Below are positions 1-12,152 of a stretch of 12,152 nt of DNA, piece by piece; the first letter of the stretch is position 1; each line of letters starts with the position of its first letter. The translations under genes and the position numbers were made by a program. The notes beneath the pieces are model-generated. The model worked only from the letters and a program-made list of their open reading frames with translations. It had not been told where the DNA came from and did not search any database. The DNA is taken from NCBI GenBank assembly GCA_022838965.1, contig JALHDK010000041.1, positions 1 through 12,152 of the forward strand, read 5' to 3'. This DNA comes from Actinomycetales bacterium (GTDB taxonomy: Bacteria > Actinomycetota > Actinomycetes > Actinomycetales > Actinomycetaceae).

Positions 1-298
1 CGAGCGTGACTCCACTGTCTGGTACCGCATGGTGCCGGCCTTCCTGGTGCTGTTCCTGGTCGCGGCGGGAGTACGCAGTCTGGGGATCATCCCGGATGCG
101 GCCGGCCCGGCCATCGCCTTCCTGGCCCACTTCGGCATCACGGTGGCGATGGCGGCCGTCGGCATGACCAGTTCGCTGACGGCCATCAGGGCGGCGGGCT
201 GGCGTCCGTTGGCGCTGGGTGGAATCCTCTGGGTGCTCGTGGCCGCGTCCAGCCTCGCCCTGCAACTGCTCACCGGACAGCTACGAACTGTGGGTTGA
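1..298 (+). CDS. yeiH: YeiH-type (UPF0324) membrane protein, C-terminal part
   Basis: This is the 3' end of a gene that enters from the left edge; the frame is open from base 2 and stops with TGA at 296-298. The roughly 98 visible residues form three hydrophobic segments. They carry the pattern typical of the C-terminus of the UPF0324/YeiH family: a PAFLVLFL helix, a second helix with the MAMAAVGM-like stretch (seen here as TVAMAAVGM), a short SLTAIRAAGWRPL loop and a final GGILWVLVA helix. The family is a set of inner-membrane proteins of about 330-350 residues, often called putative sulfate exporters, although that function is weakly established. Nothing links it to the downstream cluster; hairpins and an empty stretch separate them. 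The family call is fairly secure and the transported substrate is not. Confidence 0.85.
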   Translation, partial: ERDSTVWYRMVPAFLVLFLVAAGVRSLGIIPDAAGPAIAFLAHFGITVAMAAVGMTSSLTAIRAAGWRPLALGGILWVLVAASSLALQLLTGQLRTVG

Positions 299-552: not shown

Positions 553-993
553 CTAGTCGTCCTCGAGGCCTGCTTCGGAGGAGGTCTCTGTCGGCACCAT
601 GGTGGTGTGGGTGGCGGGTGTGTCTCCGAAGAGCACGACGGCGTCGGGGGTGTAGCCGCTGCCGGTGATGGTCACCGCGGTGCCACCCTCGGCGGGACCC
701 TCCTGCGGGGTGACCCGTTTGATCCTGGGCTCGGCGAGGTAGGTGAACGCGCCGGTGAGTGTGGCGGTGGTGGCATCGGGATTGGTGACAGTCAGGTCGA
801 CCGTGCCCTCCCGGCCGCGGGGCGTCAGCGCGGTGATGGTGTGCGCGTCGACGACGGTGACCTCCCTGGCCGGGCGTCCACCCAGTGTGACCGTGGCACC
901 GGGCACGAACCCCGTCCCGGTCACGGTGATCAGCGTCCCCCCGGTCACCGGACCCGCCACCGGACTCACACCCGCCACCCCCAGCACCTCGAC
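553..993 (-). pseudogene. IPT/TIG-domain protein remnant
   Basis: The minus-strand frame encodes one complete IPT/TIG immunoglobulin-like repeat and part of a second. The first has the SPVAGPVTGG start, GTGFVPGATVTLGG strand and TVDLTVTNPD end. The second has TPQEGPAEGGT, then GSGYTPDAVVLFGDTPA. Such repeats normally sit in tandem in large secreted or surface proteins. Here the second repeat breaks off after the GDTPA strand and ends in an unrelated acidic tail before the stop at 553. At the other end the frame runs upstream of 993 into proline- and arginine-rich sequence that overlaps the marR leader and looks non-coding. No signal peptide, plausible start or ribosome binding site is visible. 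I read it as an internal fragment of a larger gene, cut at both ends. The domain assignment is strong; the exact remnant borders are approximate. Confidence 0.7.
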
Positions 994-1063
994 CGGACCC
1001 GCTTTCGCCAGAGGTCTGGGCCGTCCTCCTTGCGACGGAGGTCTCACGGGGTGCGGCGCCTGT

Positions 1064-1070
1064 GGGAGAG
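1064..1070 (+). promoter_or_regulatory. Ribosome binding site fixing the marR start
   Basis: GGGAGAG ends 10 bases before the ATG at 1081. That ATG is in a different frame from the body of the regulator, so this site is the main reason to place the start there and to infer a frameshift. The alternative ATG at 1106, in frame with the body, has no such site. Confidence 0.6.
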
Positions 1071-1080
1071 ACTGGTGACC

Positions 1081-1660
1081 ATGACCGACGAGCACCTCCT
1101 GCCGGATGACCTGGAGCCGGAGTTCTGGAAGGACGGTCCCCCCCCTCCTGATCGAGCTGGCCCAGGTGATGTCGGTGCTCTCCTACCTCGACCTGACGAG
1201 CCTGCCGCAGTTGACCGCCGATGAGGCCGAGGTCCTCCGCATCGTGGTGTGGCGTGGCGGGATCCGGTTGCGGTCGATCGGCGACTCGCTCAAGATGCCG
1301 GCCAACCGCCTGCGCACCGCCTGCAGCCGGCTGGAACGCCTAGGGTACGTCTACCGGGTACCGGCGCGGTCGGACAAGCGGGAGCGCGTCATCCTGCCGA
1401 CCGAGCGCGGCACCCAGGCCGGCAAGTTCATCATCTCCCGGTCGGCGAACACGTCACGCGAACTCCTGGCCGGCCTCGATCCCGAGAAACGGGCCGCGGT
1501 CCTCGAGGCCGCGCAGATCCTCACCGCCCGTGGCCTCGAGATGATGCGCGACGCCGAGGCGCCCGGAGTCCAGACGGGACCAAAGTCCCCGAATGTGCGC
1601 GGCACTTTTTCACTTCGCCGAGGACCTGCGGCCCCTCCATTTTCGGGACGCCCGAACTAA
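1081..1660 (+). pseudogene. MarR-family regulator, frame broken at an eight-C run
   Basis: The gene starts at ATG 1081 (MTDEHLLPDDLEPEFWKDG), which has a good ribosome binding site. It leaves frame at the C-run 1138-1145 and continues one base later as LLIELAQVMSVL. Removing one C joins the parts into a protein of about 192 residues, normal for MarR. The body shows the MarR winged helix: an alpha-1 dimerisation helix, TADEAEVLRIVVWRGG, a recognition-helix region SIGDSLKMPANRLRTACSRLERLGYV, and the wing SDKRERVILPTERG. A long helical C-terminus follows. MarR proteins bind operators as dimers and usually respond to small acids or CoA thioesters. The gene sits 63 bp upstream of the acyl-CoA dehydrogenase and is probably the local regulator of the cluster. 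As read, the protein would be truncated, or would need a weak internal start at ATG 1106 or GTG 1168. Error, decay and phase variation all fit. Confidence 0.75.
1138..1145 (+). repeat. Eight-C homopolymer inside marR
   Basis: The run of eight C coincides exactly with the point where the marR reading frame changes. Seven or ten C would restore a continuous MarR frame. Such runs are prone to replication slippage and to sequencing miscounts alike. Confidence 0.8.
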
Positions 1661-1723: not shown

Positions 1724-2881
1724 ATGCACGTGAACTTCAAGCCTGACGAGGACCAGCAGCTCATGCTCGACGCTCTCAACGAGCTGCTCGACCGGGAAGC
1801 CACTGAGGCCTACATCACCAAGTGCGACAACGAGCACCGGCAGATGCTCGAACTGCGCCAGAAGCTGTCCGAGGCGGGCTTCCTCTCCCTCGGCTACGGC
1901 GAGGAGTTCGGCGGCACGCCCGCGTCCACCACCACGATCATGCTGATCGTGGAGGCGATCGCCAGGCGCGGCATCAACATGGCCTACGGCCTCGACGTCA
2001 TCGCCGTCCGCGACATCCTCGAGTTCGGCAATGACGAGCAGAGGGCTGCTGTCCTCGCCGAGATGTCCAAGGGCGAGGAGCCCTTCGCACTCAACATCAC
2101 CGAGCCCGGCGCCGGTTCGGACAACAGTGGCATGAAGACCACTGCCGTGACGAAGGACGGGATGGTCACGATCAACGGCACCAAGACCCTCATCACGAAC
2201 GCCACGACGGCGAAATACCAGCTGGTCATGGCCGTGGACCAGGACGCCGTGGACCCGCGCCACAACGTCTCCATGTACCTGGTGCCCTCGGACACTCCCG
2301 GCATCACGATGGACAGGCTGACGAAGGTCGGCTGGCACACGGTCGACTCCTGTGAGGTCCACTTCGACAACGTCGTCGTCCCCGAGTCCACCCTGCTTGG
2401 CCGCAAGGGCTACGGGTTCTTCCAGCTCATGAAGAACTTCGAGATCGAGCGCGTCGCGATCTGTACGGTCATGCTCGGGCTCGCCGAGGCCGCGTTCCAC
2501 GACGCGGCGGAGTACGCCGGCCAGCGGGTGGCGTTCGGGAGGCCGATCGGTGACTTCCAGCTCATCCAGGAGAAGCTCACCGACATGAAGATCGTGCTGG
2601 AGAACATGCGGCACCTCGTGTACCGCACCGCCGAGGCGATCGACAACGGCGACGACGACGTCAAGGTGCTCGCCGCCATGACCAAGCGCTACTGCGCCAA
2701 GGAGGGCTTCTGGCTCGTCGATGAGGCCATGCAGATCTTCGGCGGCATCGGCTACACCGACGGCCTGCGCGTCGCCCGCATCTGGCGCGACTTCCGCGGC
2801 CACCGCTTCGGTGGCGGCACCGACGAGATCATGGTCCACATCATCGGCCGCCAGCTCGTCAAGGACCACCTGCAGAGGTGA
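1724..2881 (+). CDS. CaiA-like acyl-CoA dehydrogenase (probable enoyl-CoA reductase)
   Basis: This 385-residue flavoprotein has the usual acyl-CoA dehydrogenase length. FAD/substrate motif ITEPGAGSD lies at 125-133, GRPIGDFQLIQEKLTDM at 272-288, QIFGGIGY at 337-344 and the terminal GGGTDEI at 363-369. The closest family I recognise is E. coli CaiA, crotonobetainyl-CoA reductase; shared features are the DSCEVHFDNV strand and the FEIERVAI helix. The catalytic Glu of the common YEGT position is Gly here. Glu242 in FEIERV aligns with the base of isovaleryl-CoA dehydrogenase and may replace it. The start at ATG 1724 has GAGGAG at 1706-1711. Gene order with a CoA-transferase, a crotonase and FixABCX argues that it works in the reducing direction, taking electrons from the electron-transfer flavoprotein. 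That direction is inferred, and the acyl chain is unknown. Confidence 0.88.
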   Translation: MHVNFKPDEDQQLMLDALNELLDREATEAYITKCDNEHRQMLELRQKLSEAGFLSLGYGEEFGGTPASTTTIMLIVEAIARRGINMAYGLDVIAVRDILEFGNDEQRAAVLAEMSKGEEPFALNITEPGAGSDNSGMKTTAVTKDGMVTINGTKTLITNATTAKYQLVMAVDQDAVDPRHNVSMYLVPSDTPGITMDRLTKVGWHTVDSCEVHFDNVVVPESTLLGRKGYGFFQLMKNFEIERVAICTVMLGLAEAAFHDAAEYAGQRVAFGRPIGDFQLIQEKLTDMKIVLENMRHLVYRTAEAIDNGDDDVKVLAAMTKRYCAKEGFWLVDEAMQIFGGIGYTDGLRVARIWRDFRGHRFGGGTDEIMVHIIGRQLVKDHLQR

Positions 2882-2887
2882 CACGAG

Positions 2888-2992
2888 GGGCTGACTCCCT
2901 CGGGAGTCGGCCCACGGCGCCGGGCCTGGGTCAGCTTCGTCAGAAGGTGGCCCAGGCGACATTCCCACACCGCCACGACGACGTGGGCGGTG
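2888..2992 (+). promoter_or_regulatory. Three consecutive hairpins in the 208-bp gap inside the operon
   Basis: The gap before the CoA-transferase gene is the longest in the cluster and holds three inverted repeats. Hairpin 1 (2888-2898 with 2903-2913) has 11 pairs including one T-G and a CTCG tetraloop. Hairpin 2 is GCCTGGG (2924-2930) with CCCAGGC (2951-2957) and a 20-nt loop. Hairpin 3 (2968-2992) pairs CACCGCC with GGCGGTG and extends inward by three pairs past a bulge. No T-run follows any of them. They could act as a partial terminator, a processing site or a 3' stabiliser that sets the ratio of the first gene to the rest. I recognise no known riboswitch or leader. Confidence 0.45.
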
Positions 2993-3089
2993 AAGTCAGA
3001 CACCGCCGTGTTCCCGGACACGCAGTGCCGCCCGATGACGTGAGCGGCGCAGAACCCGGCGGCAGAAGCATCAAGGAGAAAGAAGAGAG

Positions 3090-4313
3090 ATGGAATTCGG
3101 CAAGGTCCTCGAAGGCGTCAAGGTCGTCGAGCTCGGAACGTACATCGCAGCACCGTCCGCGTCTCGCCTCCTGGCCGACTGGGGCGCTGAGGTCATCAAG
3201 ATCGAGGGCCCCGGCCCCGACCCGATCCGCGCGTGGGGCGCCGACCTGTGCAACACCCACACGCGGGAGGAGAACCCGATCCACCAGTTCGAGAACGCCA
3301 ACAAGCTGGGCATCGGACTCAACCTCAAGACGGAGGGGGCCAGGGAGATCCTCGACAAGCTCCTCGGCCAGGCAGATGTCTTCATCACCAACACCCGCCT
3401 GCAGTCGCTGGCGAAGCTCGGCCTGGACTACGAGACGCTGCATGCGAAGTTCCCCCGCCTCGTGTGGGCGCACGTCACCGGCATGGGGACCGAAGGGCCG
3501 GAGGCGGCGAAGCCCGGCTTCGACATCACCGCGTTCTGGTCGCGGTCCGGCGCCCTCCTCGACCCGGCCGAGGCCGCCGCCTCAGTCCCGAACACCTCGC
3601 CCTACGGTGCCGGTGACCACACCCTGGCCCTCGGGCTCACGGCCGGCATCCTCGCCGCACTCCTCAGGCAGCGCGCCACCGGGGAGGGCGAGAAGGTGAC
3701 CGCCTCCCTGCTCGGCACCGCGGCGTACACCTACTCCACGATGATCGTCTCGACCCAGTACGGCGACGAATGGCCGAAGAGCCGCCTGAAGGTGATGTCG
3801 CCGCTGAACGCCTCCTACCGCTGCGCCGACGGCGAGTGGTTCATGCTCACCGTGATCCAGTACCAGCGCATGTACGAGGGCGCCTGCAAGGTCCTCGGCC
3901 TCGACCACCTCATCGACGACCCCCGGTACAACACGTTCGCCGAGCTGAAGAAGGACGGGCACGACACGGAACTCGTGAAGATGATCGACGAGGCCTTCGC
4001 CACACACGACTCGGCCTACTGGGACGAGGCCTTCACCAGGGCTGACATCCCGCACGAGATCGTCCGCCACTTCAAGGATGTGAAGGACGACCCGCAGGCG
4101 TGGGCCAACGGCAACCTCTCGACGTTCACCTTCGAGAACGGCCACGAGGCGGTCTTCCCGAGCACGCCCATCCAGTTCTCCACCAACGTCGCACCCCCGA
4201 ACAGGCGCGCCCCGCACCTGGGCGAGCACAACGAGGAGGTCCTGAAGCGCCTCGGCTACGACGACGCCCAGATCGCCGCCTTCCTGGCGTCCGGCGACAT
4301 CTTCCAGGGCTGA
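3090..4313 (+). CDS. Class III (family III) CoA-transferase, FldA/HadA/CaiB type
   Basis: This 407-residue protein moves CoA between carboxylates through an enzyme-bound Asp anhydride. The N-terminal VELGTYIAAPSASRLLADWGAEVIKIE-type motif spans about 13-39, ENANKLGIGLNLK about 68-80, and the catalytic Asp is D145 in KPGFDITAF. The C-terminal part has ADIP at 318-321, a DDPQAWANG run at 333-341, and LGEHNEEVLKRLGY at 377-390. These features, especially the AWAN run, read closer from memory to clostridial FldA (phenyllactate) and HadA (2-hydroxyisocaproate) CoA-transferases than to E. coli CaiB, whose length is almost the same. The start ATG 3090 follows AAGGAG at 3073-3078. It probably loads the incoming acid using the reduced product acyl-CoA as donor, so no ATP-dependent ligase would be needed, and none is encoded here. 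The family is secure; the acid is unknown. Confidence 0.9.
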   Translation: MEFGKVLEGVKVVELGTYIAAPSASRLLADWGAEVIKIEGPGPDPIRAWGADLCNTHTREENPIHQFENANKLGIGLNLKTEGAREILDKLLGQADVFITNTRLQSLAKLGLDYETLHAKFPRLVWAHVTGMGTEGPEAAKPGFDITAFWSRSGALLDPAEAAASVPNTSPYGAGDHTLALGLTAGILAALLRQRATGEGEKVTASLLGTAAYTYSTMIVSTQYGDEWPKSRLKVMSPLNASYRCADGEWFMLTVIQYQRMYEGACKVLGLDHLIDDPRYNTFAELKKDGHDTELVKMIDEAFATHDSAYWDEAFTRADIPHEIVRHFKDVKDDPQAWANGNLSTFTFENGHEAVFPSTPIQFSTNVAPPNRRAPHLGEHNEEVLKRLGYDDAQIAAFLASGDIFQG

Positions 4314-4339
4314 GGGCCCACGAGCATCGAGGAGAGACC

Positions 4340-5123
4340 ATGGACAACGGAGTCGTCCTGCTGGAGGTCCGGGACAGCGTCGCGTACATCACGATGAACC
4401 GTCCCGAGGTACTGAACGCGATCAACTACGAGGTGCTCGACGGCACTGTCGGCCGTCATCGACGAGGTGGAGGCGAACGACGACGTCGCCGTCGTCGTCA
4501 TCAAGGGCGCGGGCGACCGTGCGTTCGTGGCCGGTGCCGACATCGCGGAACTCGCCACCTTCGACGCCTTCTCGGCGAAGGCCTACTGCGAGCGCGGGCA
4601 GGAGATCCTCAACAGGATCGAAGCCCTCAGCAAGCCGGTGATCGCGCAGATCAACGGTTTCGCGCTCGGTGGTGGCTGCGAACTGGCAATGGCCTGCGAC
4701 ATCCGCGTGGCCTCGGAGGTCAGCAAGTTCGCGCTGCCCGAGGTCACCCTCGGAGTGATCCCCGGTTTCGGTGGCACGCAGCGGCTGCCGCGGCTGGTGG
4801 GTGCGGGCATCGCCAAGCAGATGGTCTACACGGGCAAGACGATCGATGCGCAGCGCGCCTACCAGATCGGCCTTGTCAATGAGGTCCTGCCTGTGGAGGA
4901 ACTCGAGGCCGGCGTGCAGAAGCTCGCGCAGACGATCGCCCGGAACAGCGCCGTCGCGATCCGGTTCGCGAAGGCCGCGATCAACGAGGGCCTCGAGATG
5001 GAACTCCACCGCGCGATCGCACAGGAGGCCACGCAGTTCGCCGTGAACTTCACCTCGGCGGACCGGGTGGAGGGGATCGCCGCCTTCCTCGAGAAGCGCC
5101 GGCCCACCTTCAGGAAGCCGTGA
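4340..5123 (+). pseudogene. Enoyl-CoA hydratase (crotonase), CaiD-like, frame broken
   Basis: The start ATG 4340 has GAGGAGAG at 4329-4336. The reading begins MDNGVVLLEV and keeps crotonase sequence through MNRPEVLNAINYEVLD, then loses frame. One extra G at 4442-4443 accounts for this: dropping it continues directly as ALSAVIDEVEANDD and gives a 260-residue protein, normal for the family. In the repaired protein the oxyanion-hole segments FVAGADI (62-68) and NGFALGGGCELA (105-116) are present, as are both catalytic glutamates, E114 and E134 (in PEVTLGVIPG). So only the frame is damaged. Crotonases add or remove water at the 2,3 position of acyl-CoAs; here it would dehydrate a 3-hydroxyacyl-CoA for the neighbouring reductase. 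The 26-bp and 34-bp gaps fit an operon. The good conservation after the break favours a recent mutation or a sequencing error over old decay. Confidence 0.85.
4442..4443 (+). other. Apparent one-base insertion in the crotonase gene
   Basis: The codons before (GTG CTC GAC) and after (GCA CTG TCG GCC) read as continuous crotonase sequence if one of the two G here is removed. The site is not a long homopolymer. Confidence 0.7.
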
Positions 5124-5157
5124 GAGTGAGGGGCTCGATCATGAGAAATGAGGGCAT

Positions 5158-6483
5158 ATGGGCGACGTACTGGGCCTGATCGGCATCTTCGTCGGTCTCG
5201 CATTCCTCGTCTGGGCAATCTTCAAGGGCTTCAGCCTCGTCATCGCCGCACCAGTGGCGACCATGATCGTGGTGCTCTTCAACGGACTGCCCTTCTACGA
5301 GAGCGTGTTCACCGGGGACGCCTCCTACATGGCGGCACTGGTGGGGTTCCTCAAGAACAACTTCCCGGTGTTCCTGTTCGGCGCCATCCTGGCGAAGTAC
5401 ATGGACAAGAGCGGAGCTGCTGTCACCATCGCCGAGAAGCTCATGCAGCTCGTGGGGACCTCGAGCCCTTACCGGGCGCTGGTCTCCCTGTTCGTCATCG
5501 CAGCGGTGCTCACCTACGGCGGCATCAACATCTTCGTGGTGATCTTCATCCTGATTCCGCTCGCGAAGCCGATCTTCAAGGAGTATGACCTCCCGTGGAA
5601 ACTCGTCATCGCCCCGATATTCGGCGGTGGCGCCACGTTCACCATGACGATGCTGCCGTTCTCCCCGTCACTGCACAACGCGGTACTGGCGAACGCACTC
5701 GGCACCCCGCTGTCGGCTGCGCCGATCCTCGGCACCTCGAGTGCCATCCTCTCCGTGGCCTTCGTCCTCTGGTACATGGGGTGGGACCTCAAAGCCAGCC
5801 GGAAGAAGGGAGAGACCTACAGCGTCTCCGGAGACGTCGGCGCGAATCCGTTCGACCGCGTGCGGCCCAGCTTCGGGCCGAGCTTCGCCCCGATCCTCCT
5901 GCTCCTGCTCCTGATCCTGGTGTTCACCCTCACGGCGGTCATCCCGTCCGGGCAGGCGCTGGTGTACGCGCTCATGGCGGCCATCGTCCTGGCGGCAGTG
6001 CTCTTCCGGAACTACACCACCCAGAAGGACGCCATCAACCAGGGCACGGCCGACGCGCTCACCTCGGTGCTGGCCACCGGCTCCACCATCGCCTTCGGTA
6101 GCTTCGCGGTGAGCGTGCCAGCGTTCCAGGGCGTCAAGGAGGCGATCGTCAACGTCCCCGGCAACCCCATGATCGGCCTGATGCTCGGCACGATGGTCCT
6201 GGCACTGATCACCGCGTCCTCCGTAGGCTCCGAGGGCATCTCGCTGTCTGCGTTCGCACCCGGCTACGTGGCCCAGGGCGTCGACCCGGCTTTGATCCAC
6301 CGCGCGACGGCCATCGCGGGTGGCATCTCGCTCGCCCCCCACAACGGCTTCCTCAACGTCTTCAACGGTCTGGCCGGCTTCACCCTGAAGGACTCCTACG
6401 GGCGGGCCTTCATCGCCTTCCACGTGCCGCACTTCATCGGGATGTTCCTGGTGGTCGTGTTGTCCTCGATCGGCGTCTACTGA
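5158..6483 (+). CDS. GntP-family permease
   Basis: This 441-residue integral membrane protein has about 11-12 hydrophobic segments, the size and hydropathy of the GntP family of proton-coupled carboxylate permeases (gluconate, glycerate and 3-hydroxybutyrate transporters). The C-terminal family signature is clear: TASSVGSEG at about 352-360, VDPALIHRATAIAGG next, and the conserved HNG at 395-397 followed by FNGLAGFTLKDSYGRAF. The central region has a GGINIFVV segment and a GGGATFTMTMLPFSPS loop. The start ATG 5158 has only a short-spaced GAGGG before it, so initiation may be coupled to the upstream crotonase gene 34 bp away. The gene sits where a carnitine operon would have CaiT (a BCCT transporter), so the substrate is more likely a hydroxy-carboxylate than a betaine. 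The substrate cannot be read from sequence. Confidence 0.88.
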   Translation: MGDVLGLIGIFVGLAFLVWAIFKGFSLVIAAPVATMIVVLFNGLPFYESVFTGDASYMAALVGFLKNNFPVFLFGAILAKYMDKSGAAVTIAEKLMQLVGTSSPYRALVSLFVIAAVLTYGGINIFVVIFILIPLAKPIFKEYDLPWKLVIAPIFGGGATFTMTMLPFSPSLHNAVLANALGTPLSAAPILGTSSAILSVAFVLWYMGWDLKASRKKGETYSVSGDVGANPFDRVRPSFGPSFAPILLLLLLILVFTLTAVIPSGQALVYALMAAIVLAAVLFRNYTTQKDAINQGTADALTSVLATGSTIAFGSFAVSVPAFQGVKEAIVNVPGNPMIGLMLGTMVLALITASSVGSEGISLSAFAPGYVAQGVDPALIHRATAIAGGISLAPHNGFLNVFNGLAGFTLKDSYGRAFIAFHVPHFIGMFLVVVLSSIGVY

Positions 6484-6512
6484 CCACCCCTCACGCCAGA
6501 AAGGTTCCACTC

Positions 6513-7346
6513 ATGAGCAAGAGAATCGGATTCGTCGGCCTCGGAGTCATGGGATTGCCCATGGCGGTGAACCTGAACAAGGCCGGCTTCGACGTCGTCG
6601 GTTACGACGCCTTCGAGGCCGCGCGGGACCGGGCCCGGGCCGCAGGAATCACCGTTGCCGGTTCCCTGAAGGACGTCGCCGCACAGGCGGACGAGGCGAT
6701 CATCTCGATGGTGCGCGACTACGCCCAGAACGTCGACGTCATCCTGGGGGAGGGCGGACTGCTGTCCGCGAACCCGCAGAACAAGACGATCATCGTCATG
6801 AGCACCCTCGACCCGGACACGATGAACGAACTGGCCAGGAAGGTCGAGGCGAGCGGCGGCGTGAGGATGATCGCCGCCGCCGTCAGTGGGGGAGCGTCCG
6901 GCGCACAGGCAGGAACGCTGTCGATCATGGCCTCCGGCGCGGAGGACGTCGTCGAGTCCTGCCGGCCGTACTTCAATGCTGTCGGCTCACACGTCTTCTA
7001 CTACGGCAGCGAGCCGGGCAACAGCCAGGCGGCGAAGCTGATCAACAACCTCATTCTCGGCATCACCATGAATGCCGTGGCCGAGGGTCTCAGATTCGGC
7101 GCGCACTACAGCCTGCCCCAGGAGGAGTTGCTCAAGCTCTTCACGGTCAGCACGGCCGACAGCTGGGTTGTCAGAAACTGGGATGCGGTCTCGGCCTGGA
7201 CCGCGGAGACGGCGCTGTCCGTGCTGCTCAAGGATCTGATCGCCGCGTACCACAAGGGCCTCGAGCACAACGTCCCGATGCCGTTCAATGCCCTTTCCTC
7301 GACCCAGCTGTTCACCTCCATGGGCAAGGAGAAGCAGGCCAGCTGA
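6513..7346 (+). CDS. Beta-hydroxyacid dehydrogenase (3-hydroxyisobutyrate dehydrogenase/GarR family)
   Basis: This 277-residue NAD(P)-dependent enzyme has a Rossmann GLGVMG at 9-14 and an acidic residue after beta-2 (D32 in GYDAF), which suggests NAD rather than NADP. The substrate loop is SGG at 125-127, inside AAAVSGGASGAQAGTL. The catalytic Lys is K175 in GNSQAAKLINN, with N179 and K240 (LLKDL) at the usual positions. It is slightly shorter than the 290-300 residues usual for the family. The family interconverts 3-hydroxy acids and their semialdehydes or oxo-acids (3-hydroxyisobutyrate, tartronate semialdehyde, 3-hydroxypropionate, gamma-hydroxybutyrate). Beside a crotonase and a CoA-transferase it could feed a beta-hydroxy acid into the pathway or drain one to supply reductant. 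The start ATG 6513 follows AGAAAGG at 6498-6504, 29 bp after the permease. Which member of the family it is cannot be decided here. Confidence 0.88.
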   Translation: MSKRIGFVGLGVMGLPMAVNLNKAGFDVVGYDAFEAARDRARAAGITVAGSLKDVAAQADEAIISMVRDYAQNVDVILGEGGLLSANPQNKTIIVMSTLDPDTMNELARKVEASGGVRMIAAAVSGGASGAQAGTLSIMASGAEDVVESCRPYFNAVGSHVFYYGSEPGNSQAAKLINNLILGITMNAVAEGLRFGAHYSLPQEELLKLFTVSTADSWVVRNWDAVSAWTAETALSVLLKDLIAAYHKGLEHNVPMPFNALSSTQLFTSMGKEKQAS

Positions 7347-7353
7347 CGACATC

Positions 7354-7378
7354 CGGTTCGGTCCCGAGACCCGAACCG
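7354..7378 (+). promoter_or_regulatory. Hairpin between the dehydrogenase and fixA
   Basis: CGGTTCGG (7354-7361) pairs with CCGAACCG (7371-7378), and two further pairs form inside past a one-base bulge. It lies 7 bases after the dehydrogenase stop and has no T-run. It could be a leaky terminator or an mRNA processing or stability element separating the substrate genes from the fix genes. Confidence 0.4.
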
Positions 7379-7417
7379 CCAGCACGACAAGCAGACATAC
7401 AGAAGGGAAGCTCACCA

Positions 7418-8191
7418 ATGAGCGTTGTTGTTGCCTACAAGTGGGCGGCCAATCCGCAGGACGCCAGTGTTGGCGCCGACGGCACCGTGGACTGGTCGCG
7501 CGCCAAGCCGGCAGTGTCCGAGTATGACCCCGTCGCCATCGAACTCGGCCGTCGCCTCGCCGACGAGTTCGGCACCGAGCTCGTGGGCGTCTCGGTCGGG
7601 ACCAGGGATGTGGCCGCCTCGGCCGCCAGGAAGGCCGCGCTCTCGCGCGGGTTCGACCGCGCCGCGCTCGTCGCGGACGATCGCCTCAAGGGTGCCGGCA
7701 GCACCCGCACCGGCATCGTGCTCGCCGCGGTGATCAAGCGCCTCGGCGACGTGGACGTGGTTCTCACCGGTGACGCCTCCGTGGACGTGGGCGCGCAGAT
7801 GGTGCCCGCCGTCGTGGCAGGCGCCCTGGGCTGGCCGCTCCTCACGGACGTGACCTCCATCTCCGGCACGCCCGGGAACCTCACGGTGCACCGCAACCAC
7901 CGCGGCGGGTCCCAGGTCCTGACCGTCACCGGCCCCGCCGTGCTGTCGGCCGCCGCCGACGCCGTCCAGCCGCGCATTCCCGGGATGAAGGACATCCTGG
8001 CGGCCGGCAAGAAGCCCTCCGAGGAGATCGACCTCGACTCCCTCACGCTTCCGGAGTTCGCGCCCCTCGAGTTCCTCGGGAACTCCAGGCCCGAGTCACC
8101 CGCCCGCAAGCGTGAGGTCATCGACGGCGCCGACCCGGCCGCCGCCGCCGCCAGGCTCGTCGCTGCGCTGCGCGCCGCGAAGGTCATCTGA
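7418..8191 (+). CDS. fixA: Electron transfer flavoprotein beta subunit FixA
   Basis: The 257-residue product is almost exactly the length of E. coli FixA (256). It shows the EtfB/FixA landmarks: an early VVVAYKWAANPQD strand, a TVDWSRAKPAVSEYDPVAIE segment, ALSRGFD at 74-80, TGDASVD at 117-123, and near the C-terminus IPGMKDILAAGKKP at 187-200, which resembles the PSMKAILGAAKKP stretch of E. coli FixA. With FixB it forms the ETF heterodimer that passes electrons between FixCX and the acyl-CoA dehydrogenase. The start ATG 7418 follows GAAGGGAAG at 7402-7410. The fixABCX order matches the classic operons. Whether this set bifurcates electrons, as in diazotrophs, or runs simply from quinol or ferredoxin, cannot be told from the sequence. 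Confidence 0.92.
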   Translation: MSVVVAYKWAANPQDASVGADGTVDWSRAKPAVSEYDPVAIELGRRLADEFGTELVGVSVGTRDVAASAARKAALSRGFDRAALVADDRLKGAGSTRTGIVLAAVIKRLGDVDVVLTGDASVDVGAQMVPAVVAGALGWPLLTDVTSISGTPGNLTVHRNHRGGSQVLTVTGPAVLSAAADAVQPRIPGMKDILAAGKKPSEEIDLDSLTLPEFAPLEFLGNSRPESPARKREVIDGADPAAAAARLVAALRAAKVI

Positions 8192-8221
8192 GCAACGAGT
8201 CGAGAGGGAGAGTAGAGAAGA

Positions 8222-9125
8222 ATGAGCACCACATACATCCTCGTTGCAGGCGATGCAGCGATCGACAACCTGGTCGCCACCGCCCGGGCGGTTGGTGGGC
8301 AGACCACCGCCGTCGTCGTCGGCGAGCGCGGTGGCGGACGCCGTCGCCGCCTCCGGCGTGGACAAGGTCCTCTGGACGGGCGAGCCCGGCGGGCTGCCCC
8401 TGGAGGCCTACGCCCCGGCGGTCGCGGAGATCGTGGCGGCCGCCGCACCCAACCTCGTCATCACGTCGAGCCGCGCCGCCGACCGGGCCATCATGGGGGC
8501 CGTTGCAGCGAGACTGGTCGCCCCCGTCTACACGCTGACCTCCTCCGTGGAGCACGTCGACGGCGGCACGCGGGTCACGCACGGGCTCTTCGGCGGCATC
8601 GCGGAGGAGACGGTCCAGGTACCCGGCGCCGCCCTCCTCATCCTGGATGGCGGCTCGATCGCCACGGGCGGCAGCGCGCCGGTCGAGGAGGTTGCGGCCA
8701 CCCCGATCGACACGGTCCGCGTGGTCGAGACCCTCCCGTCCACCCACGAGGCGGTGGACCTCGGCAAGGCCCCGCGGATCGTCGCCGTGGGCCGCGGCGT
8801 CAAGGCGAAGGACGACCTGGCGCTGGTGGAGGCACTCGCCGCTGCCCTGCGCGCCGAGATCGCCTGCTCCCGGCCGCTCGCCGAGGGCCTCGAGTGGTTC
8901 ACGCACGACCGGTACGTGGGCGTCACCGGCCAGCACGTCTCGCCGGAGCTCTACGTGGCCATCGGGATCTCGGGGCAGCTGCAGCACACCGTCGGTGCCC
9001 GGTCCGCCGGGGTCGTCGTCGCCATCAACACGGACAAGGACTGCCCATACTTCAAGGAGGCCGACTTTGCGGTCCTCGGTGACCTGTACAAGATCGTCCC
9101 GGCGTTGACGGAGGCCCTCAGGTGA
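8222..9125 (+). pseudogene. fixB: Electron transfer flavoprotein alpha subunit FixB, frame broken near the 5' end
   Basis: Translation from ATG 8222 (AGAGGGAG at 8203-8210) gives MSTTYILVAGDAAIDNLVAT and continues to TTAVVVG, then runs into an arginine-rich wrong frame. One base later the correct frame reads SAVADAVAASGVDKVLW onward and is intact to TGA 9123-9125. With one base removed between about 8309 and 8330 the protein is about 300 residues, close to the 313 of E. coli FixB. The C-terminal FAD domain is fully conserved: GRGVKAKDDLALVEALA, ACSRPLAEGLEWF, RYVGVTGQ, ELYVAIGISGQLQH and INTDKDCPYFKEADF. The ETF alpha subunit carries the FAD that donates electrons to the dehydrogenase. Its stop overlaps the fixC start (GTGA), indicating translational coupling. 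If the insertion is real, the electron route would fail unless frameshifting rescues it. Confidence 0.87.
8309..8330 (+). other. Apparent one-base insertion zone in fixB
   Basis: The start-codon frame reads well up to about 8323 and the frame one base later reads well from 8325. The change falls in a GTC-repeat, G/C-only stretch, so the exact extra base cannot be fixed. Confidence 0.65.
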
Positions 9126-10429
9126 CCACTCCCCAGGTGGAGCCGGACTTCGACGTCATCGTCATCGGTGCCGGCGTCGCGGGGTGCGTGACCGCCTACC
9201 AGCTCGCCCAGGCGGGCCGGTCGGTGGTCCTCATCGAACGCGGCGAGAGCGCGGGCTCAAAGAACCTGTCCGGCGGCGTGTTCTACTGCCGCGTCATGGA
9301 GCAGGTTTTCCCGAACTTCCTCGAGGAAGCGCCGGTGGAGCGCCGGATCACGCGCAACTGCCTGTCCTTCCTCAACGCGTCCTCGTTCGTGAACATCGAC
9401 TACTGGGACTCCCGGCTCGCCGAGCCCGTCAACGCGGTCAGCGTCCTGCGGGCGAAGCTGGACGTCTGGCTGGCGGAGCAGTGCGAGGAAGCCGGCGTGA
9501 TGGTGATGCCCGGCGTCCGCGTGGACTCCCTCATCTTCGAGGGTGACCAGGTGGTCGGCGTACGTGCCGGAGAGGACGAGTTGCGGGCCCACGTGGTGGT
9601 GGCCGCGGACGGCGTCAACTCCTTCATCGCGCAGTACGCCGACATCCGTGCCAAGGAGCCCATGAAGCACCTCGCCGTCGGGGTGAAGTCGGTCATCAGG
9701 CTGCCGCGCAGCGTCATCGAGGACCGCTTCCAGCTGACGGGGGACGAGGGTGCGGCGTACGCCGTCGTCGGCGACGCGACGCAGGCCGTCGCCGGCGGGG
9801 GCTTCCTGTACACGAACATCGATTCGATCTCGATCGGCGTGGTGCTGCGGCTGGACGACCTGGCCAGGAAGGGCCTGACGTCATCCGGCGTCCACGACCA
9901 CTTCCTCGCCCACCCTGCGATCGCCCCGTTCCTCAAGGACGGCGAACTGCTGGAGTACGGCTGCCACCTCACCATCGAGGACGGCCCCGCGATGGTCACG
10001 CACGACCTGACCCGGCCCGGCCTCATCCTGGTGGGCGACGCCGCCGGCTTCACGCTCAACACGGGGATGACGATCCGCGGGATGGACCTCGCCGCCGGGT
10101 CCGCGCTGGCAGCTGTCGAGGCGATCAACGCGGCGCTCGACGCCAGGGACTTCTCGCAGGCCGCGATGGACCGGTACGTGACCGCGTGGAAGAAGTCCTG
10201 GCTCGGGGCGGACATGGCCACCTACTCCAGGGCTCCGGCGTTCCTCGAGACCGACGAGATGTACCGCGAGGTCGGCCTGCTGCTCGCGGACGTCTTCCAC
10301 GGCGTCTTCGACCACGACCTGACCCCGCGGCGGCACCTCATCGGCGTGGCCCGCGAGGCACTCAAGAAGTCCACGCTCTCGCTGTTCCGGCTCGGCCGCA
10401 TCGGTGCTGCCGCCATCCGGGCGCTCTAG
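9122..10429 (+). CDS. fixC: FixC, ETF-quinone-oxidoreductase-like flavoprotein
   Basis: The 435-residue protein (E. coli FixC has 428) begins with a Rossmann FAD fold, VIGAGVAG at 14-21, followed by VVLIERGESAGSKNLSGG at about 35-52. The second FAD motif LVGDAAGF lies at 303-310, followed by TIRGMDLA. The family is the membrane-peripheral flavoprotein related to ETF:quinone oxidoreductase. It works with the ferredoxin-like FixX to move electrons between a quinone or ferredoxin pool and FixAB. The start is GTG 9122, chosen because it overlaps the fixB stop by four bases and gives the correct N-terminus just before the FAD motif. The following fixX is 11 bp away. The gene is intact and its identity is secure; the direction of electron flow is inferred from the cluster. 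Confidence 0.92.
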   Translation: MTTPQVEPDFDVIVIGAGVAGCVTAYQLAQAGRSVVLIERGESAGSKNLSGGVFYCRVMEQVFPNFLEEAPVERRITRNCLSFLNASSFVNIDYWDSRLAEPVNAVSVLRAKLDVWLAEQCEEAGVMVMPGVRVDSLIFEGDQVVGVRAGEDELRAHVVVAADGVNSFIAQYADIRAKEPMKHLAVGVKSVIRLPRSVIEDRFQLTGDEGAAYAVVGDATQAVAGGGFLYTNIDSISIGVVLRLDDLARKGLTSSGVHDHFLAHPAIAPFLKDGELLEYGCHLTIEDGPAMVTHDLTRPGLILVGDAAGFTLNTGMTIRGMDLAAGSALAAVEAINAALDARDFSQAAMDRYVTAWKKSWLGADMATYSRAPAFLETDEMYREVGLLLADVFHGVFDHDLTPRRHLIGVAREALKKSTLSLFRLGRIGAAAIRAL

Positions 10430-10440
10430 GAGGAATGACG

Positions 10441-10731
10441 ATGGCACAGTTCGGAAGTGTTCCGGAGCGGCTCGCGGGCAACCGGTTCCAGACGGATGAG
10501 GAGTTTTCGCACATCGAGGTCCACCAGGACATCGCGAAGGCCACGGGGACGGGCAAGCTCCTGGTGCGGGTCTGCCCGGCCCACGTGTACGCCGAGGAGG
10601 CGGACGGCACCATCTCGGTGGAGTACGCGGCCTGCCTCGAGTGCGGCACCTGCCTCGCCGTGGCAGCACCCGGCTCGCTGACATGGCACTACCCGCGCGG
10701 CGGATTCGGCATCTCGTTCCGCGAGGGCTGA
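10441..10731 (+). CDS. fixX: FixX ferredoxin-like protein
   Basis: The 96-residue protein matches the length of E. coli FixX (95) and its layout: an N-terminal NRFQTDEEFSHI segment, VCPAHVY with C45, CLECGTC with C65, C68 and C71, and a C-terminal PRGGFGISFREG. The four cysteines suit one [4Fe-4S] cluster. FixX pairs with FixC to connect the ETF to the electron pool. Two ATGs are possible. The one at 10435 sits directly against the AGGAGG (10428-10433) that overlaps the fixC stop, leaving no spacing. The ATG at 10441 has a 7-base spacer and is preferred. It is the last gene before the terminator, consistent with the end of the operon. Confidence 0.92.
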   Translation: MAQFGSVPERLAGNRFQTDEEFSHIEVHQDIAKATGTGKLLVRVCPAHVYAEEADGTISVEYAACLECGTCLAVAAPGSLTWHYPRGGFGISFREG

Positions 10732-11554: not shown

Positions 11555-12152
11555 TCAGGCGGCCATGTTGAACAGGGCGGTGACGCAGGCGTCGAGGGTG
11601 AAGCCTTCGCCGGCGTGGGGTGGGAAGATCCGGGAGTCGGTGAGGAGTTTCCAGGCAGGTTCCCCGGGGGTGGGTGGGGTGAGCCGGCACACCTCGGATC
11701 CGTCGCGGTGACGGAACACCCACCTGCCCGCCTGCCGGGTAAGGGACATGCCCCCTTCGTGGACCGCGGTGTGATGCCGGCGGCACAGGTTGACCAGGTT
11801 CTCGAGGTCGGTGGGACCACCCGCCCACCACGGGACCACATGGTGGGCGTCCAGGTGACGGGTCTGCTCACAGCCCGGGAACTGGCAGGCCTCCCCGTCC
11901 CGGAGCCGCAACGCCCGCCGCTGCGCCCGCGACACCCGCCGCCGCGCCCGCCCCAGGGCGAGGACCTCCCCGTCCTGGTCGAGGACCGCCGGCGCCACCC
12001 GGCCGGTACACGCCAGCCGCCGAGCGGTGTCCGGCTCGACCGGCCCGGCTCCCGCGAGGTGACACGTTCCCGCGGGAACGCCCCCGCCCGGAACACCCAC
12101 CAGGGTTTCGGCGGCCACGTGCACCACCACAAGATGATGGTCATCCTCCACC
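11555..12152 (-). CDS. HNH endonuclease (DUF222/13E12 type), C-terminal part
   Basis: The gene enters from the right edge and its start lies outside the window; 199 residues are visible. The linker VPAGTCHLAG and DTARRLACTG precede the HNH nuclease domain. Its motif is CQFPGC at about 89-94, HLDAHHVVPWW at 99-109, then ENLVNLCRRHH at 117-127 and AVHEGG. The cysteines 89, 94 and 123 with the last His pair look like a structural zinc site. HH at 103-104 and N118 or N121 belong to the beta-beta-alpha metal site. The family carries an N-terminal DUF222 and occurs in many copies in actinobacterial genomes; its biological role is not settled. A C-terminal region of about 60 residues follows the HNH motif, up to TGA at 11555-11557. 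Confidence 0.87.
   Translation of the reverse strand, partial: VEDDHHLVVVHVAAETLVGVPGGGVPAGTCHLAGAGPVEPDTARRLACTGRVAPAVLDQDGEVLALGRARRRVSRAQRRALRLRDGEACQFPGCEQTRHLDAHHVVPWWAGGPTDLENLVNLCRRHHTAVHEGGMSLTRQAGRWVFRHRDGSEVCRLTPPTPGEPAWKLLTDSRIFPPHAGEGFTLDACVTALFNMAA
12065..12080. repeat. 16-bp perfect palindrome, copy 2 (inside the HNH gene)
   Basis: CGTTCCCGCGGGAACG, identical to the core of the palindrome at 11035-11052, lies in the VPAGT-coding part of the HNH gene. It belongs to the 22-base stretch shared exactly by the gene and its relic. Confidence 0.6.

Follow-up and report, generated by a model that had tools for sequence, protein, structure and literature searches.

A two-module operon in an Actinomycetales bacterium combining a GntP permease and a HIBADH-family dehydrogenase with CoA-transfer and FixABCX genes, and its possible use of a beta-hydroxy acid

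Background

What does a cell handle with a gene cluster that resembles the carnitine genes of Escherichia coli and that carries, in its middle, a permease and a dehydrogenase of other families? The question is raised by a stretch of 12,152 nucleotides (hereafter the window; GenBank assembly GCA_022838965.1, contig JALHDK010000041.1) from an Actinomycetales bacterium, where genes for an acyl-CoA dehydrogenase (ACAD), a class III CoA-transferase (CoA-T), a crotonase and FixABCX are found together with genes for a GntP-family permease and a dehydrogenase of the 3-hydroxyisobutyrate dehydrogenase (HIBADH) family. An earlier note, made from the DNA sequence alone, described the set as a carnitine-reduction-like cluster rebuilt for a different, probably beta-hydroxy, acid. 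Here we compare the nine genes and their neighbourhoods with those of other genomes and known systems. Our tentative reading, which we find tenable though far from assured, is that they constitute one operon of two modules with which the cell disproportionates an imported beta-hydroxy acid or uses the acid as an electron sink.

Results

The CoA-transferase and its partners

The CoA-T is 28.5% identical to E. coli CaiB and 44% to an enzyme linked to crotonase and GntP genes. With the L-carnitine CoA-transferase model it scored 138.8 bits (cut-off 413), which does not place it among the CaiB-type enzymes. In a quick tree of 54 sequences (43 chosen from the 120 best matches listed, together with the window protein and those of fetched loci) it belongs to a clade of 12 members (support 100), which includes proteins of Arcanobacterium wilhelmae (P0131) and Bacillus sp. 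B15-48 (P0127). Relatives linked to HgdAB or crotonase genes are nearer to it than CaiB, which is a distant outgroup on a very long branch. The window accordingly holds the genes of a CoA-transfer-driven hydroxy acid loop, i.e. a CoA-T from a clade with hydroxy acid neighbourhoods, a dehydratase and an ACAD. The proposal of the earlier note that the acid is other than carnitine and that CoA is recycled in a loop on a hydroxy acid is supported by the place of the CoA-T in a large clade, some members of which are encoded next to crotonase and GntP or next to 2-hydroxyacyl-CoA dehydratase, with CaiB far outside.

The ACAD is nearer to E. coli YdiO (42% identity) than to CaiA (36%), and the earlier label "CaiA-like" is right as to an ACAD and loose as to the type. 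Its score of 307.1 bits with the CaiA model is under the cut-off of 540, and the PRK12341 model gave 471.7 bits, higher than CaiA and yet below its own cut-off of 537. The crotonase is 36% identical to E. coli CaiD and the CaiD model, which matched the 3' crotonase piece only, reached 137.1 bits (cut-off 500), so that a CaiD-type assignment is not made either. The CoA-T retains Asp176, aligned with CaiB residue 169, the crotonase two Glu, the ACAD Glu368 and FixX four Cys, residues that we take to have the catalytic roles customary for these families.

The identities to the respective E. coli proteins are 36% for FixA (33% to YdiQ), 40% for FixB (38% to YdiR), 41% for FixC (43% to YdiS) and 45% for FixX (37% to YdiT). 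The Fix names rest on these values of 33-45%, on electron transfer flavoprotein (ETF) domains in Pfam for FixA and FixB, and on NCBIfam matches below cut-off. FixX is below cut-off both in Pfam (22.6 against 24) and with the NCBIfam FixX model (73 against 166 bits). All four Fix genes lie within the same cluster, as in a cai/fix operon, a change of frame in fixB notwithstanding.

Comparison with carnitine and other described systems

We searched the window by tblastn at 1e-3 with 11 proteins, of which only CaiB and CaiD matched. There was no match for E. coli CaiT, CaiC, CaiE, CaiF, YdiF and FadK or for the Proteus mirabilis HGD activator and HGD-D subunits, in agreement with the earlier statement that homologues of CaiT, CaiC and CaiE are absent. 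The E. coli caiTABCDE-fixABCX genes resemble the window in that a single region encodes an ACAD, a class III CoA-transferase, a crotonase and FixABCX, at the identities of 28.5% (CoA-T), 36% (crotonase) and 36% (ACAD) given above. They differ in that the window has GntP and HIBADH-family genes in place of CaiT, CaiC and CaiE, and in that the window genes are all on one strand while those of E. coli form two divergent operons. The E. coli ydiF-ydiO/ydiQRST-fadK region holds the nearest of the compared relatives of the ACAD (YdiO) and FixC (YdiS), but has YdiF, which we take to be a class I CoA-transferase, and the ligase FadK, and no crotonase, GntP or HIBADH gene is annotated in the stretch. 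The gamma-butyrobetaine (bbu) cluster of Emergencia timonensis, as outlined in PMC8364193, shares an ACAD-type flavoenzyme and class III CoA-transferases; it differs in its betaine/carnitine/choline transporter, ferredoxin and thioesterase, and neither crotonase nor FixABC is among the six genes that the outline lists.

The nearest described arrangement that we found is that of Propionibacterium freudenreichii, where caiABC, a major facilitator superfamily (MFS) transporter gene, an enoyl-CoA hydratase gene and fixABCX occur together (PMC11007987, PMC7650540). According to the portion of PMC11007987 that deals with this cluster, it lacks CaiT and CaiD homologues and, like the window, has a transporter and a hydratase of types other than these placed between the cai and fix genes. 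It differs in its MFS transporters, CaiC and alpha/beta-hydrolase, is linked to carnitine and acylcarnitines, and has no GntP or HIBADH gene in that description, with which, rather than with the sequence, the window was compared. The P. freudenreichii proposal is a precedent for viewing the window as a carnitine or crotonobetaine reduction cluster whose transporter and hydratase are non-homologous. This is in our view extremely improbable, given that the CoA-T is so much closer to the crotonase/GntP-linked enzyme than to CaiB, that CaiB is a far outgroup and that tblastn revealed no CaiC or CaiT. A carnitine function was rejected on the identity to CaiB and its place in the tree. Among open-licence papers searched by title and start of abstract we found no description of a cluster of this kind with a GntP or HIBADH-family gene. 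The earlier note knew of no described operon with this exact composition; P. freudenreichii offers a close described precedent.

The GntP permease and the HIBADH-family dehydrogenase

The permease matched Pfam GntP above cut-off but weakly (28.2 against 22.5 bits) and scored 29.2 with the gluconate symporter model TIGR00791, under its cut-off of 292.75. The dehydrogenase belongs to the beta-hydroxyacid dehydrogenase superfamily, with NAD_binding_2 and NAD_binding_11 both over the Pfam cut-offs. It cannot be called a 3-hydroxyisobutyrate dehydrogenase from its score with TIGR01692 (159.9 bits, cut-off 291.6), which was nearly equalled by the L-threonate dehydrogenase model (155, cut-off 350). 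A string search located VSGG at position 124 and a catalytic-type Lys at 175, to which we ascribe the presumed roles of this motif and residue in the family. The subfamily is conserved (at least 70% identity in the best 120 matches listed), passes no NCBIfam cut-off, and its best match among solved structures is distant (132.5 bits).

The second Rossmann-fold strand of the dehydrogenase is followed by an Asp ("YDAF"), and an Asp at this place usually indicates NAD preference and oxidation. This bears on the possibility, close to the view of the earlier note, that the enzyme forms the hydroxy acid for a reductive loop by reducing an internal semialdehyde, while GntP exports or exchanges. Members of the family can reduce semialdehydes, but GntP members are mostly importers, and with the Asp this makes such a role very unlikely. 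Where the earlier note had the dehydrogenase making the acid, the enzyme could equally oxidise it.

The pairing of the two genes recurs elsewhere. Among the best 80 of 596 GntP loci, searched by tblastn at 1e-4 over at most 10 kb to either side, a HIBADH gene was found only in Oceanobacillus damuensis, where it adjoins GntP (73% identity). A search with the dehydrogenase at 1e-60 matched 11 of 299 genomes of the order to which genome G001 belongs, and GntP is adjacent in three, O. damuensis included. The GntP-HIBADH pair stands by itself, with a LysR gene in the vicinity, in three loci (L001, L097, L098). A quick tree of GntP proteins (43 rows, rooted at midpoint for drawing only) puts the window permease into a clade of 22 members (support 97) with the HIBADH-adjacent GntPs of these three loci and several GntPs linked to HIBADH by a longest contig of equal size. 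The permease and the dehydrogenase therefore probably share a substrate. HIBADH genes without GntP (L099-L106) are 56-68% identical to that of the window, and by eye no neighbour gene is common to all of them.

Since GntP and HIBADH also pair without CoA genes, the window appears, as judged from gene content, to join a permease-dehydrogenase module to a module of CoA-T, crotonase, ACAD and FixABCX. The two might be unrelated, with GntP-HIBADH serving one hydroxy acid and the CoA-transfer genes another acid, as the free-standing pairs near LysR genes would allow, and as would Bacillus sp. B15-48 (P0127), which has a close CoA-T relative, there being no permease of matching source name or contig size among the 120 of 138 permease matches listed. 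We consider this distinctly unlikely in view of the tight spacing in mid-operon, the repeated recruitment of GntP into such clusters and the apparent recurrence of the set on a 124,858-base contig (both below). The earlier note had named unrelated insertion of permease and dehydrogenase as grounds for giving up its proposal; the two genes do occur as a unit outside such clusters, but their presence here does not look random, as GntP has joined CoA-transfer clusters from different branches.

Related clusters in other genomes

The neighbours of GntP relatives suggest what they may carry. In six of nine loci listed (L006, L009, L012, L013, L037, L059) Pfam identifies a thiolase, class I CoA-transferase, short-chain dehydrogenase/reductase (SDR) or 3-hydroxyacyl-CoA dehydrogenase nearby, as would be expected for 3-hydroxybutyrate-type use.

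CoA-T matches were obtained in four of 398 Bacillota genomes sampled (E<=1e-55), at 1e-100 in G381 alone. This genome has ACAD, CoA-T, crotonase and GntP in the same order as the window, and within its family the G381 protein as query (1e-120) found a CoA-T in four of 17 genomes. GntP is next after crotonase in three of the four, being full length in G702 and G703; in the fourth (G704) the contig ends inside crotonase. In G381 itself GntP (L096, approximately 5272-8420) is cut short beside resolvase/recombinase and HTH_38 genes. These operons differ from the window in a GntP of another branch and an ACAD of about 30% identity. Three further Bacillota genomes have HGD-D dehydratase and activator genes (G247), ACAD and ETF-like genes (G364), or ACAD with FixC/FixX-like genes (G368) near the CoA-T, and no GntP within approximately 19.5 kb (tblastn at 1e-4).

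In P. mirabilis (L082; NZ_OL790811.1, 10297-22510, an unannotated record of 4.08 Mb filed under plasmids) a second gene set adjoins the cai/fix genes and comprises a ligase-like gene, a CoA-T, an HGD activator, two HGD-D genes, GntP, ACAD and a second FixABCX. This set has the look of a cluster for the Fix-driven reduction of 2-hydroxy acids; a literature search combining "2-hydroxyacyl-CoA dehydratase" and "fixABCX" returned no paper. Like the window, the HadABC-type clusters of P. mirabilis and G247 (L119) have a related class III CoA-transferase (40% and 39% identity), and that of P. mirabilis has GntP, ACAD and FixABCX in addition. They differ in that an HGD-D dehydratase with its activator, and not a crotonase, removes water. 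For such systems 2-hydroxy acids are expected, and HGD-D has a known role in reductive pathways.

The GntPs from the Bacillota operons with ACAD, CoA-T and crotonase group with those of L012, L013, L037 and L059 (10 members, support 99). The GntPs of L006 and L009, with hydroxybutyrate-type neighbours, lie on the same side of the midpoint root as the window protein, and so do those of L002 and L003, without such neighbours; the P. mirabilis GntP is on a long branch and its placement is unsure. As the permeases of comparable clusters come from different branches, GntP seems to have been recruited to CoA-transfer clusters more than once, so far as sequences can tell, and the repeated pairing favours GntP as the substrate importer.

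Sizes of longest contigs among the 120 best matches of each protein search were compared by eye. Relatives of the permease and of HIBADH share longest contigs of 4,883, 7,400, 103,995, 128,973, 512,813 and 5,303,701 bases, where the short ones could coincide by chance, and relatives of the permease and CoA-T share one of 2,085,583 bases (A. wilhelmae; P0013/P0131). Relatives of all three (P0003, P0123, P0283) share a longest contig of 124,858 bases, an equality that suggests that the set recurs there. When plasmids were searched with CoA-T, HIBADH and GntP, all matches were below 60% identity, and around the CoA-T of Aerococcus tenax (44%) no comparable genes are annotated. At E<=1e-90 no CoA-T was detected in the 397 genomes searched from the order of G001, a count that is uninformative without a positive genome.

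Layout of the operon and flanking genes

The nine genes (Table 1) are closely spaced on the same strand, the widest gap being the 208 bases between ACAD and CoA-T. Start and stop codons were examined along with GC content at third codon positions (GC3), which is 0.89-0.95 across the nine genes and gene parts measured. The group looks bounded, as a MarR-like gene precedes it and a DUF222/HNH gene, on the opposite strand, follows it. Scans for consensus promoters and terminators gave no more matches than in shuffled sequence, and Rfam gave no match in the window at the gathering threshold. The group is a real and probably functional operon, and the nine genes are presumably co-expressed.

Table 1 Features of the window and the basis of their assignment
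Feature	Position	Strand	Basis or remark
ACAD	1724..2881	+	Pfam, NCBIfam; identity to YdiO; Glu368 kept
Class III CoA-transferase (CoA-T)	3090..4313	+	Pfam, NCBIfam, tree; Asp176
Crotonase (enoyl-CoA hydratase)	4340..5123	+	Pfam, NCBIfam, GC3; one frame switch
GntP-family permease	5158..6483	+	Pfam; branch holding HIBADH-paired permeases
HIBADH-family (beta-hydroxyacid) dehydrogenase	6513..7346	+	Pfam; below every curated cut-off tried
FixA (ETF beta-like)	7418..8191	+	Pfam ETF domain, identity to E. coli
FixB (ETF alpha-like)	8222..9125	+	Pfam ETF domain; one frame switch
FixC (ETF-quinone oxidoreductase-like)	9122..10429	+	Pfam FAD-dependent oxidoreductase domains, identity to E. coli
FixX, ferredoxin-like	10435..10731	+	NCBIfam below cut-off, identity to E. 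coli FixX, four Cys
MarR-like gene, possible regulator	1106..1660	+	Upstream; 22.8 bits, below the 27-bit cut-off
IPT/TIG-domain open reading frame (ORF), perhaps surface protein fragment	553-1095	-	Domain match
PF03601 (Conserved hypothetical protein 698) protein, end only	29-298		
DUF222/HNH gene	11555-12151	-	Downstream of operon

The reading frame switches once in crotonase (approximately 4440-4470; ORFs of 4340 and 4467) and once in fixB (approximately 8300-8335; ORFs of 8222 and 8244), and at both sites the GC3 signal jumps frame and is high on either side. The other seven genes are open from end to end, so we suspect an error of assembly or sequencing more than a pseudogene. The families of the nine genes agree with the earlier note, which missed these switches; its "full" fixABCX and gene set apply only if they are sequencing errors.

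Discussion

We regard the operon as a variant of CoA-transfer-driven hydroxy acid metabolism in which each part is of a known kind and the combination appears new. In the mechanism that we propose, GntP would import a short beta-hydroxy acid, part of which the HIBADH-family enzyme may oxidise to the semialdehyde, giving NADH for FixABCX. That permease and dehydrogenase travel together makes it probable that the latter acts on the imported acid. The CoA-T would move CoA from the end-product acyl-CoA onto the imported hydroxy acid, the crotonase would remove water from the hydroxyacyl-CoA, and the ACAD, as putative enoyl-CoA reductase fed by FixABCX, would reduce the enoyl-CoA, after which the product acid could leave once its CoA has passed to the next substrate. 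Azotobacter work, as PMC11007987 and PMC7650540 relate or cite it, is the source for NADH as electron donor of FixABCX. We infer which way the pathway runs, on what substrate, and what the dehydrogenase does, and 3-hydroxyisobutyrate and 3-hydroxypropionate are guesses at the substrate. A narrower proposal, which we place on the doubtful side, is that the operon is self-contained, one imported 3-hydroxy acid being both donor (through the HIBADH-family enzyme) and acceptor (through CoA-T, crotonase, ACAD and FixABCX). It would then parallel the radical HadABC and acrylate pathways with a crotonase as its basis, and would have been assembled by insertion of a permease-dehydrogenase pair into a reductase cluster driven by Fix.

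Disproportionation employs all nine genes, and so does its oxidative reverse, the main rival. Here the CoA-T would activate an acid such as isobutyrate, the ACAD would oxidise it, with electrons going by way of FixAB and FixCX to quinone, and the crotonase would hydrate the product; CoA would be passed on and the freed 3-hydroxy acid oxidised to the semialdehyde by the HIBADH-family enzyme. Enzymes of this family act on free acids, which would explain why the hydroxyacyl-CoA would have to be freed by CoA transfer. FixC and FixX match ETF-quinone oxidoreductase models, both under cut-off. Permease and HIBADH relatives both come from the genera Planococcus, Sinomonas and Pseudarthrobacter, which are aerobic; the Planococcus matches share one longest contig size, those of the other two genera being from different strains. 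On the other hand, the 3-hydroxybutyrate-type genes often found beside GntP relatives suggest import of a hydroxy acid and not of a plain fatty acid, and the parallel clusters use an HGD-D dehydratase, with its reductive associations. We therefore hold the oxidative direction to be unlikely.

Several observations weigh against the disproportionation or electron sink that we prefer. The 80 GntP loci contain no CoA-T, one HIBADH, one crotonase, two ACAD and one FixB gene, and three of the nine listed (L002, L003, L008) are by eye without hydroxybutyrate-type neighbours. No GntP lies within 12-17 kb around HIBADH in eight of the 11 genomes, so HIBADH does not need GntP or a CoA loop. The Bacillota operons (G381, G702, G703) have the same first four genes, and these, like G704, have neither HIBADH nor Fix genes in the stretches read. 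A complete cluster was not read in a second genome, the 124,858-base match being indirect, and crotonase and fixB each change frame in this window.

If the preferred reading is true, beta-hydroxy acids would be added to what bacteria with FixABCX can use as electron acceptors or ferment, and the presence of a GntP permease beside genes of CoA-transfer reduction would be accounted for. It would also advise caution against labelling every CaiA/CaiB/FixABCX-like cluster as carnitine metabolism, and a HIBADH subfamily that matches no NCBIfam model above cut-off would gain a testable substrate.

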